Shown here: positions 8,501-18,818 of the stretch, piece after piece
Layout: every line of letters begins with the position of its first letter
Numbering within the stretch: position 1 is the stretch's first letter
Assembly (NCBI GenBank): GCA_947461635.1
Contig: CANHMH010000008.1
Span: 1 to 39,883, forward strand
Length of the DNA: 39,883 nt
Origin: Flavobacteriales bacterium
GTDB taxonomy: Bacteria > Bacteroidota > Bacteroidia > Flavobacteriales_D > Crocinitomicaceae
Reading direction: 5' to 3'
Translations under genes and position numbers: made by a program
The notes under the pieces: generated by a model
What the model was told of the DNA's origin: nothing
The model's input: only the letters and a program-made list of their open reading frames with translations
The model's database searches: none

Positions 8501-8682
8501 TTCATTTCACTTGCCGCCTTATTGGTAAAGGTCATGGCAACAATGCTCTTATATTTTCTTTTATACTGAGCATCTTTCAATAAAATAGTGAGGTATTCAA
8601 GTACCAATTGATGCGTTTTTCCCGATCCAGCTGAGGCACTTAAAACACTGAGAGGATGTATGTTTCGATCAATACTTTGCAT
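5554..8682 (-). CDS. UvrD/RecB-family helicase-nuclease (AddA-like)
   Basis: This superfamily 1A helicase with a C-terminal RecB-type nuclease is probably the AddA-like subunit of a double-strand-break end-processing enzyme. The motifs appear in order: Walker A SASAGSGKT (residues 15-23), TFTNKAASEM (Ia), LLDEFQDTS (II, Walker B), VGDAKQSIYRF (III), LPSNFRS (IV), TIHKSKGLEFP (V) and LFYVGMTRP (VI). The nuclease core shows IDFKTG near residues 997-1002 and QIVAYAKLL shortly after. The frame is open up to 8811, but ATG 8682 is chosen: it begins MQSIDRN just before the Walker A, and an upstream start would overlap the divergent MbnP gene and its promoter. The protein is 1042 residues. An AddB-like partner, often adjacent in Bacteroidota, is not present here. 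Confidence 0.9.
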   Translation of the reverse strand: MQSIDRNIHPLSVLSASAGSGKTHQLVLEYLTILLKDAQYKRKYKSIVAMTFTNKAASEMKERILTTLFGIAYVDPENKKVENMRSDLEKQTGLSAQELTKRSKLALEGILHAYEDFHVSTIDKFNLRLIRSFSRDLDLPADFEVVLNEKQVTEDVVDLLMNQLGTPGAEDLTDWMYQYAKANLEEGNSWNFRRQLIEFSSMLGKEKNTEKIQQLLQLELTKGNYKRLFEDRNQILTSFLADAKHVHDEFFNLDLNLSDIPGKGTTVKNFEKLNVQNAFPKINSNNDGLFSATLMNLMEANSKLAIPLSLKQDVIRLNDRYLKDLAAFNLIELYRKNFFNMALLQHVGKQLQLMMNDEQLIRISEFNKLISKLVRDEEAPYIYERLGVRFEHFLLDEFQDTSRLQWLNLIPLMLESLAHNRWNLIVGDAKQSIYRFNNGLAEQFVSLPAIYNPENDRQIAAKSATFASRGAKRVLPSNFRSAKEIVEFNNQLFEGLAKCLPANMAHFYQDLKQEPTQQKSGYIHIESIQQKITFDERLEKVIGFIEESLHAGFEPGDICILTETNKLGNALAIGLTERKYQVVSQDSLLIYKDAQVQLILSYLRRRASPKKTTETKRFAELYFRIQGTYSAADYLAYFEVIQKDGKSIRVFNDTRFLIDHFGGTSNFFETYESVYDLVQKFMKLMDWKETEEPYLHHFMDVIYGFQLARQTDIHHFLDYFDAQKDKIALQMPDTQSALKIMTIHKSKGLEFPVVIIPNMDFTISMNTNGRYLMEVRDKILYAFPGKNQQIPELDAFAKEENNLILLDKMNLFYVGMTRPELRLYAINDFEKGKFGAMIHDQLEGLNLGMTEDGLLQIGQTTPISEKEDPSENLYIPVDFSQRLWYPDIVFRKVFQEETEIQQEEQRFGNDFHLVMSLCQSKVDTDPVLMNLLNDGQIEQKNEIRLRECALSFWQKMEEGDYLSNIEKSLNEQVVLAGENDVKKPDKVLVKSDEIIVIDFKTGKINQSHMEQIVAYAKLLEEIFKKPVRCLLYYSALNQLTEL

Positions 8683-8762
8683 ATTTTTTACTGAAATTGA
8701 ATGGGTTAAAGAATGTTCAGAGGATTTTTTAAAATTAACAACAAAATTTGATTGTTTTAAGG

Positions 8763-8770
8763 TAAATTTG
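8763..8770 (+). promoter_or_regulatory. Candidate -7 box for the MbnP operon (TAAATTTG)
   Basis: This is an exact TAnnTTTG octamer ending four bases before the ATG of the MbnP-like gene, in the 92-base gap between it and the divergent helicase. No convincing TTG lies 17-23 bases upstream, so support is partial. Use of this box would give an mRNA with almost no 5' leader. Confidence 0.4.
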
Positions 8771-8774
8771 TTAC

Positions 8775-9521
8775 ATGAAGAAATTACTTTATTTGGTAGT
8801 CTTATCGCCATTACTTTGGAGTTGTGATCCAGATGACCCGAAGCCTGTTGATCCAGTAGTGGAAACAGTGAAGGTAAGCATCAATCCGACCTACGGAACG
8901 CAACCTTTCTATATGGATTCAGTGTATACAACCGCTGATGGATACAAAGTGAAATTCACAGAATTGACGTGTTATTTCACGTTAATGGGTAATGGGACTA
9001 ATCAATTAATTGAGGCTGCCTTGTTTAACTTTCGTGAAACAGGTTCGCTTTTGGTGTCAAAACCTGCAAATCATTTAAACTATTCGAATCTTACCGGTAA
9101 AATCGGGGTTGACTCCAGTTTAAACCACCTAGATCCTTCTGCTTTTCCGAATGAAAGTTCTTTGAATATTAGTAATGCGGGGCCAATGCATTGGGGTTGG
9201 AATCCCGGCTACATCTTCATGAATATTGAAGGAAAAGTGGATACAATTATTGACGCAACAAATAATCTTGACTTGAGTTTTAGTTTTCATGTGGGAACAG
9301 ATACGTATTTGCAATCCTTTAATTTTGAGAATGTCACTTGGCAAGACAAGGGAAATAACCTTTGGGAATTGCCATTGAAATTAGATTTGGCTAGCTTTTT
9401 ATCAAATCCTGTTAGTCCAATTAACTTAAAAGATGAACATTTAACGCACACCGCAGCAGGACAAGAAAGCTTAACACAAAAAGTGATACAAAACTTCAAA
9501 AATGCGCTAACATTAAACTAA
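8775..9521 (+). CDS. MbnP-like lipoprotein (putative copper-binding partner)
   Basis: This is the MbnP family (formerly a DUF), known as the periplasmic partner of the di-heme enzyme MbnH; in methanotrophs MbnH oxidises a tryptophan of MbnP to kynurenine, giving a copper-binding protein. The 248-residue protein starts with a lipoprotein signal ending LWSC (Cys17). It carries the family stretch MHWGWNPGYIF (H139, W140, W142, N143) and TDLxxSF-like beta segments around residues 160-175. The stop overlaps the start of the peroxidase gene by one base (TAATG), indicating translational coupling. Copper binding and tryptophan modification here are inferred from the family and the gene pairing; methanobactin genes are not seen. 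Confidence 0.85.
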   Translation: MKKLLYLVVLSPLLWSCDPDDPKPVDPVVETVKVSINPTYGTQPFYMDSVYTTADGYKVKFTELTCYFTLMGNGTNQLIEAALFNFRETGSLLVSKPANHLNYSNLTGKIGVDSSLNHLDPSAFPNESSLNISNAGPMHWGWNPGYIFMNIEGKVDTIIDATNNLDLSFSFHVGTDTYLQSFNFENVTWQDKGNNLWELPLKLDLASFLSNPVSPINLKDEHLTHTAAGQESLTQKVIQNFKNALTLN

Positions 9522-10591
9522 TGAAATTCGTCATTGTTTTCTCTTTTTTGTTCCTTTTCGTAGCCTGTCGTAAAGACAAAGCTGATTATACGCCTACTCC
9601 TTTTCAATTAAAAATTCCAGCGCATTTTCCCGACATGATTATTCCATCGGGAAATCCTATGACTGTTGAAGGAGTTGAACTTGGGCGCTTTCTTTTTTAC
9701 GAGAAACAACTGAGTGGAGACAATTCCATGAATTGCGCATCGTGTCATATGCCACAAAATTCCTTTTCGGATCCCAATCAATATTCTGTTGGGATTGATG
9801 GAGTTTTTGGGAATCGTCAATCCATGGCCTTAATTAACATTGGGTGGGAGAACTTCTTTTTTTGGGACGGTAGAAAAACAACCTTGGAATCTCAAATCCT
9901 TGAACCGGTTTCAAATCCAATTGAAATGCATCAATCATGGAAAGATGCTATTCATAAACTAAATGCTGATGTAACATACCGAAATCGCTTTTTTAGAGCA
10001 TTCGGGGAAGAAGGCGTTGATTCAATTAAAGCGGCAAAAGCAATTGCTCAATTCATTCGTACCATGATTTCTAGTGAGTCGAAATATGACGTTATGTACA
10101 AATTTGAAAACAATTTGACGTTGAATTCATCCGAGCAAGCACTACTTTCAACCGTCGATTTAGATGAATGGGCTGGCTACGATTTATTCAAAAGTTTAAA
10201 TGGTGCAGATTGTTTTCATTGCCATAATGGTCCATTAATGCGGGTGAAAAAATTTAGTAACAATGGACTCGATGCGACGTTTGGTGATTTAGGGAGAGGC
10301 GGCGTCACACAAAATCCAGAAGAAAATGGCAAATTTAAAGTCACAACCCTCCGCAACATTGCTTTTACTGCACCTTATATGCACGATGGACGATTTGCCA
10401 CATTAGATGAAGTTATAGAACATTACTCCAGTGGGGTTCATATGAGTGCAACAATTGATCCATTGATCGAATATGCCAACCAAGGTGGTGTACAGCTAGA
10501 CGCGCAAGAAAAATATTTATTGAAGAAATTTTTACTCACGTTAAGTGATTACAATTTCATCAATAATCCATCATTTAAAGATCCGAATTAA
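9521..10591 (+). CDS. MbnH/MauG-like di-heme cytochrome c peroxidase (lipoprotein)
   Basis: This di-heme protein of the bacterial cytochrome c peroxidase/MauG superfamily acts in the periplasm. There are two heme-binding motifs: CASCH at residues 72-76 and CFHCH at 231-235. The N-terminus (LFLFVAC, Cys16) is a lipoprotein signal, so the enzyme is probably membrane-anchored. FDGRK-like WDGRKTTLE follows the first heme, and TAPYMHDGRFATLDEV is typical of the C-terminal domain. Pairing with an MbnP-like gene through a one-base TAATG overlap favours an MbnH-type protein-modifying enzyme over a plain peroxidase, but the two cannot be separated by sequence alone here. Its own stop overlaps the next gene in the same way. 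Confidence 0.9.
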   Translation: MKFVIVFSFLFLFVACRKDKADYTPTPFQLKIPAHFPDMIIPSGNPMTVEGVELGRFLFYEKQLSGDNSMNCASCHMPQNSFSDPNQYSVGIDGVFGNRQSMALINIGWENFFFWDGRKTTLESQILEPVSNPIEMHQSWKDAIHKLNADVTYRNRFFRAFGEEGVDSIKAAKAIAQFIRTMISSESKYDVMYKFENNLTLNSSEQALLSTVDLDEWAGYDLFKSLNGADCFHCHNGPLMRVKKFSNNGLDATFGDLGRGGVTQNPEENGKFKVTTLRNIAFTAPYMHDGRFATLDEVIEHYSSGVHMSATIDPLIEYANQGGVQLDAQEKYLLKKFLLTLSDYNFINNPSFKDPN

Positions 10592-12009
10592 TGGGAGAAA
10601 ATACAAGACTAACGACAGAGGAAAAGGCATTAAAAATCAATTTAACGCCAGATATTTATGGGTGTTTTGCGGAAATTGGTGCTGGTCAAGAGGTCGCAGC
10701 AAACTTTTTCAAAGCTGGTGGTAGTTCCGGTACAATTGCTTACACACAGTCGGCATATGACATGAAAGTTTCCGACTCCATGTATGGTGAAACAATCCGG
10801 TACGTGTGTGAGGAACGTCTAACAACCATGTTGGAAACAGAGTTCTTGCACCTTCAAGATATTCTGCCCGTTAAAAACAGAGAAGCCCGTTTCTTTGCAT
10901 TCTGTAACACAGTTGAGTCATTAAATTACCACAAAACAAATCAAGGTCAAGGTTGGGTTGGAATGCGCTTCCAATTAGGAATTGATAAAAAACCTAACAA
11001 TGTCATATTGCACATCAAAATGCATGACAATAGCCACAAAGCACAGCAAGAAGCACTTGGTATATTGGGGGTAAACCTGGTCTATGCTTGTTATTTCCAA
11101 TCTGCTTCAATTGATGAATTTATTGACGGAATCGTTCAGCGACTTCCGAGAGACCGCATGGAAATCGACATGTTGCGCATTTCGGGACCGGACTTTGAGG
11201 AAATGGATAATCGAATCATCGCATTAAATTTAGTTCGTCGTGGAATAACCAATGCAACGATGTTCGATTTAGCGAAGAATGTGATGCAGCCTTCAACAGC
11301 CTTGTACAAGAAAAATATACTGTTGATGCGTGGACGTTTTCGTCCAGTCACGAAGGTGCATATCGATATGATTGAGAAAGCTCGAAAAGAGTTTTTGAAA
11401 GAGAACCGAGTAAAGGAAGAGAACTTGGAAGTTGTTTTCGAGTTAACCTTAAAAGATTTAACTGCTGATGGGAAAATCTCAGATAAGGACTTTTTAGATC
11501 GCGCTGAATTATTGGGCTCTCTTGGATATACTGTAATGATTTCAAATTATTTGAAACACTACAAAATGCTAGAATATTTGTCCGCTATTGCTAAAGGAAA
11601 TCTTGTTGGAGTGATTATGGGAGTATACAACCTGCATATCATATTCGATGAAAAATATTACGACAATTTACCGGGTGGATTATTAGAAGCTTTCGGCAGA
11701 GGATTTGGACACAATGTTAAATTGTATGTGTATCCAGCCATCAACGTTGATACCGGGGACCTTTATGGACTGAACAACATTAAACTACCAGAAAACCTCA
11801 CTGGACTTCTTACCTACATGCAAGCGAATGATAAAATTGCTGCTATTCCTGAGTACAATGAAAGACTATTACACATCCTTTCAGACGATGTATTGAGTAA
11901 GATTAAGTCTGGTGGTGTCAGTTGGGAAGAGGACGTACCATACGAAGTAGTTCAAGCAATCAAGTTTTTTGAATTGTTTGGTTACCAGAAAAAAGTAGTC
12001 TTGAACTAA
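10591..12009 (+). CDS. Conserved protein with nucleotidyltransferase-like motif
   Basis: The 472-residue protein belongs to a family I recognise as widespread in Bacteroidota (N-terminal DIYGCFAEIGAGQEVA) but without an experimentally assigned function. Public records label relatives inconsistently, including as TonB-dependent receptors or nicotinate-nucleotide adenylyltransferases. It is soluble-looking: no signal peptide or beta-barrel pattern, so a TonB receptor is excluded. At residues 246-257, MRGRFRPVTKVH resembles the GRFxPxHxGH site of nucleotidyltransferases, but with Lys-Val-His in place of the usual HxGH, so activity is uncertain. The gene is coupled by one-base TAATG overlaps to the peroxidase before it and the WYL regulator after it. 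Confidence 0.65.
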   Translation: MGENTRLTTEEKALKINLTPDIYGCFAEIGAGQEVAANFFKAGGSSGTIAYTQSAYDMKVSDSMYGETIRYVCEERLTTMLETEFLHLQDILPVKNREARFFAFCNTVESLNYHKTNQGQGWVGMRFQLGIDKKPNNVILHIKMHDNSHKAQQEALGILGVNLVYACYFQSASIDEFIDGIVQRLPRDRMEIDMLRISGPDFEEMDNRIIALNLVRRGITNATMFDLAKNVMQPSTALYKKNILLMRGRFRPVTKVHIDMIEKARKEFLKENRVKEENLEVVFELTLKDLTADGKISDKDFLDRAELLGSLGYTVMISNYLKHYKMLEYLSAIAKGNLVGVIMGVYNLHIIFDEKYYDNLPGGLLEAFGRGFGHNVKLYVYPAINVDTGDLYGLNNIKLPENLTGLLTYMQANDKIAAIPEYNERLLHILSDDVLSKIKSGGVSWEEDVPYEVVQAIKFFELFGYQKKVVLN

Positions 12010-13025
12010 TGCCGCATATTAAAAATGCCTTGATTCGTTTTCGCATTATCGATCGGATGCTGCGCAATAAATACAAGCCATACCCGAGTAAACTAGAGCT
12101 TCGGTCCGCTTGTGAAGAATCGCTTTATGGTTCAGATCATGGAAATAATATTTGTGATTCAACCATTGAAAAGGACATGTTCAATATGAAGATGGAACAT
12201 GATGCGCCCATCAAATACAGTAAACTGCACAAAGGATATTATTACGAGGATCCAAATTTTAGCATCAATGACATTCCTTTATCGGAAGATGAATTAAGCT
12301 CGATAAAATTCGCAGTTAAAACATTGCAGCAATTTAAGGAAGTTCCCTTTTTTCAGCAGTTTGGAAATGCCATTGATAAAATTGTAGACCGCGTTTCCAT
12401 TGGTGGAAATCCGGAAGATGAAGACATTCAGAAATATGTTCAATTCGAGTCTGTCGTTTCGAGTGGTGGAAATGAACACTTGCCGATGATTCTCGAAGCA
12501 ATCCGCGGTAAGAAAATGCTGTGGTTTATCTATGCAAGTTTCGTAAAAGGTGTAGAAAAACCAAGAAAAGTGTCTCCGCTTTTTCTGAAAGAATATCGAA
12601 ACCGTTGGTACCTCATCTGTTTCGATAAATTGAAAAACGACATCATTACCTATGCACTAGACCGCATGCAAGATCCTAAAATTTTGGAAGATGAGTCTAG
12701 TTTGCCTGTCGATTTTCAACCGGAACTCTATTTCCAAGATACGATTGGTATTACATCATACAAAGGAAAAGCTGAGCGAATTGTATTCAAAGCCAATCCG
12801 ATTGCGGCAAAGTATATTTCTTCGCAACCTTTTCATCAATCTCAGAAACTCACGGCTGAATCCGCAGATTTTAGTATGTTTGAATTAAACGTTTTAGTTT
12901 CCGAAGAATTCATCCGAAATTTGCTGGGATATGCTGGTGAATTAGAAGTCCTTGAGCCAAAAAGTTTACGTAAATCCATGGCAGAACGCGCTAAACAGTT
13001 ACACAAATTATATCAATCGAAATAA
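12009..13025 (+). CDS. WYL-domain transcriptional regulator
   Basis: The 338-residue protein has an N-terminal winged-helix-like region (RFRIIDRMLRN through roughly residue 60) and a WYL domain whose hallmark reads RWYLI (Trp200-Tyr201-Leu202), preceded by PRKVSPLFLKEYRN. WYL regulators bind DNA and sense ligands, often nucleotides or nucleic acid fragments; the ligand here is unknown. It is translationally coupled to the preceding gene (TAATG at 12007-12011), so it most likely regulates its own operon or acts with the 10591 protein. PaaG-like follows 26 bases later with no visible terminator or promoter between. Confidence 0.85.
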   Translation: MPHIKNALIRFRIIDRMLRNKYKPYPSKLELRSACEESLYGSDHGNNICDSTIEKDMFNMKMEHDAPIKYSKLHKGYYYEDPNFSINDIPLSEDELSSIKFAVKTLQQFKEVPFFQQFGNAIDKIVDRVSIGGNPEDEDIQKYVQFESVVSSGGNEHLPMILEAIRGKKMLWFIYASFVKGVEKPRKVSPLFLKEYRNRWYLICFDKLKNDIITYALDRMQDPKILEDESSLPVDFQPELYFQDTIGITSYKGKAERIVFKANPIAAKYISSQPFHQSQKLTAESADFSMFELNVLVSEEFIRNLLGYAGELEVLEPKSLRKSMAERAKQLHKLYQSK

Positions 13026-13051: not shown

Positions 13052-13825
13052 ATGGAAATCATAAAAGAAATAATAAACGGCGTTTGTCACATTACATTCA
13101 ACCGACCAACTGTCTTCAATTCATTCAATAAGACAATGGCCTTGCAACTACAAGACGTGTTAGATGAATGCGCTGTAAATCCCGAAATCCGTGCAATATT
13201 GATTACAGGTGAGGGAAAAGCATTCTGTGCTGGACAAGATTTAGCGGAGGCGATTGATCCGGAAGGACCTGAATTAAAATCGATTGTTCGTGATCACTAC
13301 AATCCAATCATCATTAAAATCAGAGAATTGGAAAAACCAGTTATCGCAGCAGTGAATGGTGTTGCAGCAGGAGCTGGCGCTAATATTGCCTTGGCATGTG
13401 ACATCGTTGTCGCAAAAAAATCCGCCTCGTTCATTCAAGCTTTTTCCAAAATCGGATTAATTCCAGATTCAGGTGGAACGTACTTCTTACCAAGATTAGT
13501 TGGAGTCCAAAAAGCTGTGGCATTGATGATGACGGGCGATAAAGTTTCTGCAGACGATGCGGAACGAATGAACATGATTTACAAAGTGTTCGAAGATGAG
13601 TCTTTTGAAGAGGAAGTGATCAAATTAGCTGAAAACCTAGCTACGATGCCAACCTACGGACTCGGATTAACAAAAAAAGCGGTGAATTTAGGTTTATTTA
13701 ATTCATTAGAAGATCAATTAGATTTAGAAGAAAGTTTACAAACAGAGGCTGGAGAAACGGATGATTTCACTGAAGGAGTGAATGCATTTATTCAAAAGCG
13801 TCCAGCAGTATTTAAAGGAAGATGA
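13052..13825 (+). CDS. paaG: Enoyl-CoA hydratase/isomerase (PaaG-like)
   Basis: This is a crotonase-fold enzyme of 257 residues. The oxyanion-hole segments are FCAGQDL (around residues 58-64) and GVAAGAGANIAL (around 102-113). IPDSGGT places an aspartate at residue 139, equivalent to the catalytic Asp of PaaG, the 1,2-epoxyphenylacetyl-CoA isomerase, rather than the two glutamates of classical hydratases. It overlaps paaH-like by four bases (ATGA), so the pair acts together on CoA-thioesters, converting and oxidising beta-hydroxyacyl-CoA. The rest of a phenylacetate pathway (paaABCDE, paaK, paaZ) is not in the window, so the true substrate is open. Confidence 0.8.
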   Translation: MEIIKEIINGVCHITFNRPTVFNSFNKTMALQLQDVLDECAVNPEIRAILITGEGKAFCAGQDLAEAIDPEGPELKSIVRDHYNPIIIKIRELEKPVIAAVNGVAAGAGANIALACDIVVAKKSASFIQAFSKIGLIPDSGGTYFLPRLVGVQKAVALMMTGDKVSADDAERMNMIYKVFEDESFEEEVIKLAENLATMPTYGLGLTKKAVNLGLFNSLEDQLDLEESLQTEAGETDDFTEGVNAFIQKRPAVFKGR

Positions 13826-14985
13826 GTAAAGTAATTGGAGTAATTGGAGCAGGAACTATGGGTTCTGGCATCGCGCAAGTGGCTGCTCAATGTGGACATT
13901 CGGTTTATTTGATGGATGCGAATGTTGAGCAATTGGATCGTGCGAAAACGGGCGTTTCTAAATCCCTCGAGAAATTAGTGGAAAAAGGGAAATTCACTTC
14001 TGTACAAAGAATGGAGATTGAGTCAAACATAAAGTATGTAACACAATTGGAAGGGCTTTCATCTTGCGATTTGATTATCGAAGCAATCGTAGAGAAAATG
14101 GAAGTCAAACACAGTGTTTTTTCGGCTTTGGAGAAAGTTGTTTCGGCCGATTGTATTTTGGCAAGCAACACCTCTTCCCTATCCATTGCCTCCATTGGAT
14201 CTTCCTTATCAAAAGCAGATCGTGTGATTGGCATTCATTTTTTCAATCCAGCAACGATTATGCCTTTGGTTGAAATTATTCCTGCTGTACAAACCAATGC
14301 TCAGACACTTGAATCATCCGTGGAATTAATTAAAAGCTGGGGGAAAACCGTTGTTGTGTGCAAAGACACACCTGGATTCATCGTGAACCGAGTTGCACGT
14401 CCATTTTATGGTGAAGCACTTCGCATATACGAAGAAGGGATCGCAGACTTTGCAACCATCGATTGGGCGATGACCGAATTTGGTGGATTTAAAATGGGTC
14501 CATTTACCTTGATGGATTACATTGGAAACGATGTGAATTACGCTGTAACTGAATCCGTATTCCAAGCATTTTACTACGATCCGCGTTTCAAACCGTCCTT
14601 TACACAAAAACGACACAGTGAAGCAGGATTTTACGGAAGAAAAACAGGACGTGGTTTTTATACTTATGCTGAAGGAACGGTATTTCCGGAACCTGATAAA
14701 GATGAAATCATTGGAAAAATGATTTTTGAGCGCGTGCTTGTAATGCTCATCAATGAAGCCATTGATGCTGTCTTTATGCAAGTAGCATCCGTGAAAGACG
14801 TCGATTTAGCCATGACGAAAGGAGTGAATTATCCAAAAGGATTATTGGCATGGGCGGATGAAATTGGACTGGACTGGGTTTTAACAAAGTTGAACGCACT
14901 ATTTCATGAGTACGGAGAAGACCGTTACCGTCCAAATGCGCTTCTCAAACGAATGGTAGAAAATGGTGATAAATTTTATTCATAG
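13822..14985 (+). CDS. paaH: 3-hydroxyacyl-CoA dehydrogenase (PaaH-like)
   Basis: This NAD-dependent dehydrogenase oxidises 3-hydroxyacyl-CoA to 3-ketoacyl-CoA. The 387-residue protein begins with a Rossmann motif GAGTMG (residues 9-14). The catalytic histidine is His139 in IGIHFFNP, followed by the MPLVEII glutamate and the DTPGFIVNR segment. A second C-terminal 3HCDH-type helical domain is present (RVLVMLINEAID to YRPNALLKRM), as in PaaH. The start overlaps the paaG stop by ATGA. No terminator is visible after the stop; metK has its own promoter 15 bases downstream. Confidence 0.85.
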   Translation: MSKVIGVIGAGTMGSGIAQVAAQCGHSVYLMDANVEQLDRAKTGVSKSLEKLVEKGKFTSVQRMEIESNIKYVTQLEGLSSCDLIIEAIVEKMEVKHSVFSALEKVVSADCILASNTSSLSIASIGSSLSKADRVIGIHFFNPATIMPLVEIIPAVQTNAQTLESSVELIKSWGKTVVVCKDTPGFIVNRVARPFYGEALRIYEEGIADFATIDWAMTEFGGFKMGPFTLMDYIGNDVNYAVTESVFQAFYYDPRFKPSFTQKRHSEAGFYGRKTGRGFYTYAEGTVFPEPDKDEIIGKMIFERVLVMLINEAIDAVFMQVASVKDVDLAMTKGVNYPKGLLAWADEIGLDWVLTKLNALFHEYGEDRYRPNALLKRMVENGDKFYS

Positions 14986-17451: not shown

Positions 17452-18818
17452 AAAAGTTACTTTTCTTCCTTTTAGTATGTGCGAGTTCTGCGCAAGCACA
17501 ACTTGACGGTCTTTGGCATAGTTCATTCCAAGTAGCCGGAAAATCTCTATTAATGGACCTTGATATCAAGGGCATTGGGCGCGATGGATCTGTATCTGTA
17601 ATCATTCCAGATCAACCACAGATCAAGCCTCAAGAAATGGAAGTATATTCTCTTTTTATCGATAGTTTGTTTTTCCGTTGGGACCGTATTGGACTCAGTT
17701 TTGCCGGAAAATTAAAAAACGACAGCCTGAAAGGGATTATGAAGCAAAGCGGACTTGAATGGAACGTCGTATTTACTAAAACGGAACAAGCACGCGTGGA
17801 AGTTTCGGGTCGTCCACAGGATCCAGTTGGTCCATTTTCATACGAACAAAAGGAACTGGAAATCAAGAATAAAAAGGTCAGCATAGCCGGAACACTTACT
17901 TTACCTAAGGAAAGAGAATTTCCAATTATTATCTTAGTTTCTGGATCAGGTCAACAGGACAGAGATTGTGAACTTGTTGGACACAAACCATTTTGGATAC
18001 TCGCTGATTATTTGAGTAAAAATGGAATCGCTGTTTTTCGTTATGACGACCGAGGCATCGGAAAAAGTACAGGAGAGTTTGCTTCGTCCACGGAGACGGA
18101 TTTCACCAGTGACGTACTTGCTGTATTCTCATATTTGAAGAAAAAATATCCCGGACATCCAATTGGTATTTATGGTCACTCCGAAGGTGGAATCATTGGA
18201 CTTCGTGCAGCAGCACAACAAAAAGAAATTAGATTCCTAATTGAATCAGCATCCGTTGGAACGAATGGAAAGGATGTTTTGGTGAATCAACAATACGATA
18301 TTCCCATCGCATCTGGTATGAGTGAAGAGGAAGCAAAATGGAATTCCCGTTTATTTGAAGAGGCTGCCAACATTGTTTTAAAAACAGAAACAGCTTCCTT
18401 TCTTAAGGATTATAAAATTTGGTTAGCCACTGTATGGGAGAACATACCATCCTCTTTCAAAGAAGATAAATCGATGAATGACATGGCCTCGGAAATGAGT
18501 GTCTTTATCAACACTAACTGGGCAAAAGAATTTCTGAGTTATCAGGCCGCAGATTACCTAAAAACGGTTGATTTGCCCATGCTCATTATCAACGGAAAAA
18601 AAGACCTGCAAGTGCGTTGGGATGAAAGTCAAACTGGATTTAAGAAATATATGAATGTAAATACTTTAAGACAGTCCACATTCAAGGCATATGACGACTT
18701 GAATCACCTTTTACAACCCTGTATAAAATGTACTATCTCGGAATATGCGACGATTGAAACCAGTATGAGTCCAATTGTCATGTCGGATATTTTAACGTGG
18801 GTAAAATCATTTAAATAA
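17448..18818 (+). CDS. Secreted alpha/beta hydrolase
   Basis: The 456-residue protein has a cleavable signal peptide (MKKLLFFLLVCASSAQA, cut near residue 17-18), so it acts in the periplasm or outside. Residues from about 20 to 120 form a beta-rich N-terminal domain (DGLWHSSFQVAGKSLLMDLDIKG) seen in similar Bacteroidota hydrolases. The catalytic domain shows VSGSGQQDRD near the oxyanion site and GHSEGG with nucleophile Ser245; INGKKDLQV and DLNHLL provide plausible acid and histidine. The substrate cannot be deduced; peptidase or esterase activity is possible. It overlaps mtnA by four bases and the next gene by one. Confidence 0.85.
   Translation: MKKLLFFLLVCASSAQAQLDGLWHSSFQVAGKSLLMDLDIKGIGRDGSVSVIIPDQPQIKPQEMEVYSLFIDSLFFRWDRIGLSFAGKLKNDSLKGIMKQSGLEWNVVFTKTEQARVEVSGRPQDPVGPFSYEQKELEIKNKKVSIAGTLTLPKEREFPIIILVSGSGQQDRDCELVGHKPFWILADYLSKNGIAVFRYDDRGIGKSTGEFASSTETDFTSDVLAVFSYLKKKYPGHPIGIYGHSEGGIIGLRAAAQQKEIRFLIESASVGTNGKDVLVNQQYDIPIASGMSEEEAKWNSRLFEEAANIVLKTETASFLKDYKIWLATVWENIPSSFKEDKSMNDMASEMSVFINTNWAKEFLSYQAADYLKTVDLPMLIINGKKDLQVRWDESQTGFKKYMNVNTLRQSTFKAYDDLNHLLQPCIKCTISEYATIETSMSPIVMSDILTWVKSFK

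Follow-up and report, generated by a model that had tools for sequence, protein, structure and literature searches.

An MbnP/MbnH-type pair in conserved order with a predicted CinA/PncC-NMNAT-like fusion and a WYL regulator in Crocinitomicaceae: promoter sharing as the probable link

The closest described counterparts of the genes analysed here are MbnP and MbnH of Methylosinus trichosporium OB3b, where MbnH converts, as Manesis et al. are said to have found in 2021, the first Trp of a WxW motif in MbnP to kynurenine, with copper reportedly being bound near the kynurenine by His, Met and solvent. The CorA/CorB and MopE/SACCP systems of methanotrophs can be likened to this pair by description, each combining a copper protein that carries a Trp-derived kynurenine with a co-transcribed di-haem peroxidase-like gene, but they differ, again by description only, in that the copper is held by two histidines, water and kynurenine (passages of PMC3912023). 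As early as 2013 the MbnP/MbnH pair was noted far beyond methanobactin producers (PMC3621798, in part), and in other bacteria MbnPH-like genes sit in operons with copper genes (excerpts of PMC9426467); a limited literature search found no publications on MbnPH in the lineage studied here. The window, i.e. the whole stretch of 39,883 bases of the Flavobacteriales contig CANHMH010000008.1 that was analysed, contains a locus of this type. Four open reading frames (ORFs), all on the + strand, encode an MbnP-like lipoprotein (mbnP, 8775-9521, 248 amino acids), an MbnH-like di-haem lipoprotein (mbnH, 9521-10591, 356 amino acids), a protein of 472 residues (10591-12009; the 472 protein) and a WYL/WCX transcriptional regulator (12009-13025, 338 amino acids; PF13280 with E=1.7e-16 and PF25583 (WCX) with E=2.4e-10 in Pfam). 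The coordinates and the ORF list confirm that the genes are joined by a one-base TAATG overlap at each of the three junctions, the final base of TAA being the first base of the next ATG, as the initial annotation of this DNA had stated.

The explanation that we regard as reasonably probable is that the MbnP/MbnH pair and the 472 protein with the WYL regulator are two unrelated modules on a shared transcript, held together by promoter sharing rather than by a common pathway. The first module would act in the cell envelope, where di-haem MbnH would turn Trp140 of MbnP, part of its WxW motif, into kynurenine by oxidation. The modified MbnP would then bind a single Cu(I) close to this kynurenine, to Met138 and to His172, and would thereby store, deliver or scavenge copper outside the cytoplasm. 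The second module would be cytoplasmic and consist of a CinA/PncC-like and NMNAT-like fusion with rewritten catalytic sites, plus the WYL regulator. A leaderless promoter directly before mbnP would drive both modules by co-transcription in the window's genus, with no functional link between them.

MbnP matches PF20243 in Pfam with E=2.9e-19 (70.1 bits, cut-off 27). In the alignment of MbnP at this locus, which has 71 rows (70 relatives and the window), the lipobox Cys17 as well as Met138, Trp140, Trp142, His172 and His225 are invariant (71/71), and Met138, Trp140, Trp142 and His172 are also unchanged in all 14 rows of a wider MbnP alignment. Residues 138-142 (9186-9200, + strand) read Met-His-Trp-Gly-Trp and thus contain WxW, with Trp140 as predicted kynurenine site and Met138 as candidate copper ligand; His172 (9288-9290, + strand) is a further candidate ligand, based on its conservation and its alignment with a His of the M. 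trichosporium OB3b entry 7L6G. The initial annotation had made its proposal depend on the modified-type Trp and the copper ligands, and the residue types reported for the latter, His and Met, are present in MbnP and conserved at matching places. A comparison of the single MbnP sequence with solved structures gave no match; with the 14-row profile, Met-x-Trp-x-Trp and the His line up with 7L6G, albeit at a weak score (E=0.029). The AlphaFold2 model of MbnP (pLDDT 86.3, 12 sequences in its alignment) matches 7L6G with Z 15.0, a root-mean-square deviation (rmsd) of 3.1 and 196 aligned residues at 17% identity in the structural alignment, the next entry following at Z 3.9.

The window's pair resembles that of M. 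trichosporium OB3b in the model fold, in WxW with a Met two residues ahead, in the conserved His and in a di-haem MbnH-like gene adjoining mbnP. Unlike in M. trichosporium OB3b, MbnB was not found, two histidines, His139 (70/71 rows) and His118 (68/71 rows), are extra, and the genes for the 472 protein and the WYL regulator follow. The position before the first Trp is Phe or Tyr in 20 of 21 other Flavobacteriales MbnPs, the remaining one showing no WxW; judged from these alignments, the MbnP of the window's clade carries an added His (His139) ahead of the first Trp, giving MHWxW. PF20243 was detected in 282 of the 299 genomes that were sampled from Flavobacteriales, many of them with at least two copies, and from these searches MbnP looks near-universal in the order. 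The window's own genome has a second MbnP-MbnH pair (contig C126, L307:958-2918), followed by a gene that resembles mnmE by eye. The second MbnP has no lipobox, and its extra C-terminal residues resemble a type IX secretion tail by eye, a suspicion for which Pfam gave no confirmation. Among 20 other MbnP loci (L289-L308) the stretches near MbnPH contain a small CNGKC-type motif protein (12/20), a CDxCGC barrel-like protein (8/20) and a YHYH protein (4/20), and the one YHYH protein that was examined with Pfam bears a type IX secretion tail.

MbnH matches CCP_MauG (PF03150) with E=1e-51, and its best match among solved structures is 6e1c ('Di-heme enzyme', E=1.5e-44), which we take to be MbnH of M. 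trichosporium OB3b. In an alignment of 73 rows Cys, Cys and His of the first haem motif (CASCH, residues 72-76, 9734-9748, + strand) are each conserved in 72 rows and those of the second (CFHCH, residues 231-235, 10211-10225, + strand) in all 73; YMHDG is conserved, too. The lipobox Cys16 is found in 71 of the 73 rows, the other two having gaps there, so that both MbnP and MbnH appear to be lipoproteins, in agreement with the initial annotation. The 73 MbnHs of the locus form a clade separate from 19 others (support 0.84). A search for MbnB (TIGR04159) in the 83% complete genome of the window gave no match, consistent with the earlier remark that methanobactin genes were not seen, and among 20 genomes searched one has a match, which lies below the cut-off. 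Altogether, sequence and model give good support for a variant MbnP/MbnH pair, with kynurenine modification and copper binding as predictions.

To describe the conservation of the gene order, 100 loci were chosen from the listed matches of the 472 protein and the surrounding DNA was annotated with the window's proteins; 88 of them belong to Crocinitomicaceae, the family of the window, and 12 to other Flavobacteriales families. Relative to the 472 gene, MbnH was counted up to 1.5 kb upstream and WYL up to 2.5 kb downstream, which means that a locus with all four genes may have its WYL gene 2.5 kb off; in g5, the Fluviicola genus, the distance to WYL reaches about 2 kb. By script, the 88 family loci have MbnH in 71 cases, MbnP and MbnH in 69, WYL in 75 and all four genes in 62. 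At locus L074 MbnPH was missed by the script due to an over-long start of the 472 ORF, which adds one to each MbnPH count and raises the number of complete loci to 63; at L104 and L114 the contig end falls inside MbnH. All four genes are found in 36 of the 37 loci of the window's genus by script, and in 37/37 with L074. MbnP and MbnH are separated by -4 to 4 bases at 65 of 69 loci, and MbnH and the 472 gene often by -1 to 8 bases. The order is thus not unique to the window's genome. The TAATG overlaps by themselves are ordinary, and such an overlap alone was rejected as proof of coupling as it recurs elsewhere in the window (two further one-base junctions in the ORF list, at 18818 and 29905); the conservation of gene order in relatives exceeds chance.

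The four-gene order does exist and is conserved in one family, yet it is no lock, contrary to what the initial annotation had suggested, because the 472 gene and WYL occur without MbnPH, MbnPH and the 472 gene occur without WYL, and distant loci have no MbnH. The first arrangement is present in 11 of the 88 family loci (12 by script before the correction for L074); WYL is at most 85 bases from the 472 gene in six of them (L098, L109, L147, L148, L152 and L153, with g14 represented three times) and more than 1 kb away in five (g2, g4 twice, g10 and g11). The second arrangement is found in 7/88 loci, from g6, g9 and g12. Neither MbnPH nor WYL was found at the 472 gene in any of the 12 loci of other Flavobacteriales families. 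In a second set of 80 loci from named genomes, 11 have MbnPH-472 and three have the 472 gene and WYL without MbnPH (more than 1 kb apart in L174). The remaining 66 loci are distant, with at most 54% identity to the 472 protein of the window, and come from Cytophagales, Mucilaginibacter, Chitinophagaceae and Flavobacteriaceae, among others; in none of them was MbnH found next to the 472 gene within the stretch covered (0/66). For L140 and several distant loci the upstream part of this stretch comprises just 0.9-2 kb, to which the absence of MbnPH is limited. In one distant locus, L201, an MbnP-like ORF lies ~3.6 kb from the 472 gene.

The -7 box of Bacteroidota is TAnnTTTG, spanning positions -12 to -5 relative to the start of the transcript (parts of PMC9723704 and PMC6847099). 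A match to this box, TAAATTTG (8763-8770, + strand), begins 12 bases before the ATG of mbnP in the intergenic region (8683-8774) between mbnP and a divergent gene for a UvrD-like helicase, whose likely start codon is at 8680-8682 on the - strand. In 25 sequences of the window's genus, made up of the window itself and 24 of the 37 loci, the box begins at the same position in 21, at -15 in two and is missing in two. As the window holds 47 such boxes in its 39,883 bases, both strands taken together, the fixed position before mbnP is not due to chance. The position of the box predicts that the mbnP mRNA is leaderless, with transcription starting from the A of the ATG; leaderless mRNAs account for 5.5% in Flavobacterium psychrophilum (PMC9723704, in part).

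Among the 100 loci, a box is located near the called start of MbnP in 48/69 cases, of MbnH in 3/71 and of WYL in 0/75. The genes for an enoyl-CoA hydratase and a 3-hydroxyacyl-CoA dehydrogenase, which lie at 13052-14985 on the + strand of the window and are often kept downstream of 472-WYL in relatives, have it in 14/63 and 1/62 cases, respectively, and METK in 27/30. The 472 gene is preceded by a box in 33 of the 100 loci, namely in 12/12 loci of other families and in 21/88 of the family, including all seven g5 and all three g14 loci, but in none of the 37 loci of the window's genus. Since two genus loci had miscalled starts, the positions were rechecked with a protein motif as anchor, resulting in 11/11 loci of other families and 0/35 genus loci, with one and two loci, respectively, being unplaced. 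Scans for sigma-70 type promoters and for a -33/-7 pattern remained at chance level. Because no box lies before either gene in the window's genus, we infer that the 472 gene and WYL depend on the mbnP promoter there.

Several observations weigh against two unrelated modules with a kynurenine-forming MbnP/MbnH pair. The best NCBIfam match of MbnH, TIGR04039, reaches 238.8 bits and stays under the equivalog cut-off of 362.85, MbnP scores below the cut-off of the equivalog TIGR04052 (MbnP_like_WxW; 27.7 against 140 bits), and the ligand types used in the comparison of the copper site are those reportedly given by Manesis et al. Moreover, the order across several genera and the tight gaps between MbnH and the 472 gene could stem from selection that favours expressing the genes together for a functional reason, and in g5 (Fluviicola, seven loci) MbnPH is kept before the 472 gene even though the latter has a promoter box of its own, so that promoter sharing alone does not explain the g5 order.

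The cut-offs that are not reached, together with His118 and His139, also fit a different role of the pair, in which MbnH chiefly acts as a peroxidase or has other oxidation targets, and the MbnP of this clade binds metal without kynurenine, or another metal via these two histidines. We regard this as possible, though unlikely, given that Met-x-Trp-x-Trp and His172 are invariant and align with 7L6G, and that mbnP adjoins mbnH in the loci of this clade. Less probable still is the proposal of the initial annotation that all four proteins belong to one pathway of copper handling or protein oxidation with WYL as its own regulator. The order kept in 62-63 of the 88 family loci and a box that precedes mbnP and never WYL are in line with such a module. 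It is at odds with the WYL gene following the 472 gene where MbnPH is absent, with MbnPH-472 lacking WYL in g6, g9 and g12, and with a 472 family that is found in 56 of 296 sampled phylum genomes and has no MbnH neighbour in 12/12 and 66/66 loci; in addition, the modelled folds of the 472 protein suggest nucleotide chemistry and no obvious metal role. For the coupling to the last two genes, promoter sharing explains the data at least as well as this module.

The initial annotation had regarded the third protein as unknown and conserved. Conserved it is, and it has no Pfam family at E<=1 and no PF02464 match, but it models as a CinA/PncC-NMNAT-like fusion. NCBIfam yielded a sub-threshold hint of a nucleotidyltransferase (E=0.064), and phage-protein and defence libraries yielded nothing useful. 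In the AlphaFold2 model (mean pLDDT 88.9, pTM 0.86, 51-sequence alignment) residues 5-175 match the CinA C-terminal domain 6l19 (Z 16.1, rmsd 2.5, 152 residues aligned), and residues 240-466 match the NMNAT 1nup (Z 16.8, rmsd 3.3, 200 residues aligned) as well as 2H29 (Z 16.1). On this basis we assign a CinA C-terminal/PncC-like domain to residues 1-172 (10591-11106, + strand) and an NMNAT/NadD-like domain to residues 240-466 (11308-11988, + strand). Profile comparison of the C-terminal domain with 18 NadD proteins (from 20 loci) using hhalign lent modest support to the NMNAT assignment, with a collinear alignment of 178 columns (E=4.7e-4, probability 33%); in comparisons with eight single NadD proteins, two matches were rarely equalled by shuffled sequences (2 and 4 of 200), and for the other six shuffles were often as good (35 to 129 of 200). 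The N-terminal domain showed no relation to a CinA profile (E=0.2 over 26 unrelated columns, 5/20 CinA loci extracted), and its weak pairwise match to one CinA protein, the best of five, was equalled by 5/200 shuffles. As the profile comparison was negative, the CinA relation of this domain rests on the model and that one pairwise match.

The same weak pairwise CinA alignment was used to place the PncC active-site residues, ten of which are listed in the part of PMC3855486 consulted. Seven could be placed, with S/T356, G357 and R394 left unplaced. Glu28, Ser46 and Tyr56 are kept in the 472 protein, and the PncC motif AESCTGG reads AEIGAGQ, with Glu28 to Gln33 being invariant in 51/51 rows; the positions of the PncC Ser, Thr, second Gly and Lys are occupied by I29, A31, Q33 and S61, again in 51/51 rows. 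The Lys, replaced by Ser61, has been proposed to be the general base in Thermus CinA (PMC4246079, in part). In the C-terminal domain the HxGH signature is lost, the first His position being Thr254 in 47/51 rows, the third position V256 in 50/51, and residue 257, the second His, being His in 18/51 and Asn in 27/51; the Arg position of SxTxxR is not conserved, either. The protein thus shares the fold and, by pairwise alignment, Glu28, Ser46 and Tyr56 with the CinA C-terminal domain/PncC nicotinamide mononucleotide (NMN) deamidase (6L19, 2A9S), but differs from it by the replaced catalytic Ser, Thr, Gly and Lys and by the absence of PF02464; likewise, it shares the fold of residues 240-466 and a collinear profile alignment with NMNAT/NadD (1NUP, 2H29), but lacks HxGH and SxTxxR and has this domain fused behind a CinA-like one. 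A canonical NadD is present in 20/20 and CinA in 19/20 genomes of the relatives set, and both occur in the window's genome. Because several catalytic residues are replaced and NadD and CinA are already available, the 472 protein is probably an extra, strongly conserved fusion and not a plain NMN deamidase or nicotinic acid mononucleotide (NaMN) adenylyltransferase. The two folds in one chain belong to reactions that follow one another in the pyridine nucleotide cycle (passages of PMC3855486) and might imply an active two-step enzyme of both activities for NAD recycling; this is very improbable in view of these replacements and the separate enzymes.

Of 299 genomes sampled across the order, 232 gave a match to the 472 protein; the plasmids searched gave none. 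Three genomes of the window's genus (G161, G286 and G296, 98% complete) gave no 472 match; the gene may not be essential everywhere in the genus. In 19 of the 66 distant loci (L178, L179 and L181-L244) the gene directly upstream of the 472 gene is on the opposite strand and encodes a PhnP-like metallo-hydrolase, named by eye; in one further locus of this set such a gene is farther off. A limited literature search returned no publications on the 472 fusion.

The occurrence of MbnP and MbnH beyond methanobactin producers was known before, and to this the window's clade adds a variant that has one more His at the site and can be tested. The most novel object at the locus is the 472 family, and its model turns an unknown conserved Bacteroidota gene into a concrete enzymology question. 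A tentative idea, which we hold to be of low probability, is that it constitutes a Bacteroidota family that has gone unrecognised, a CinA/PncC-NMNAT fusion of ancient origin with two sites that may have been remodelled, either for a new reaction of pyridine nucleotides or for the sensing of NAD precursors. Its Crocinitomicaceae copy would have come to be driven by the promoter of a kynurenine-copper pair that has the clade-specific MHWxW, which would link copper or oxidant status to nucleotide metabolism. The promoter comparison indicates that a conserved gene order can mislead on shared function.

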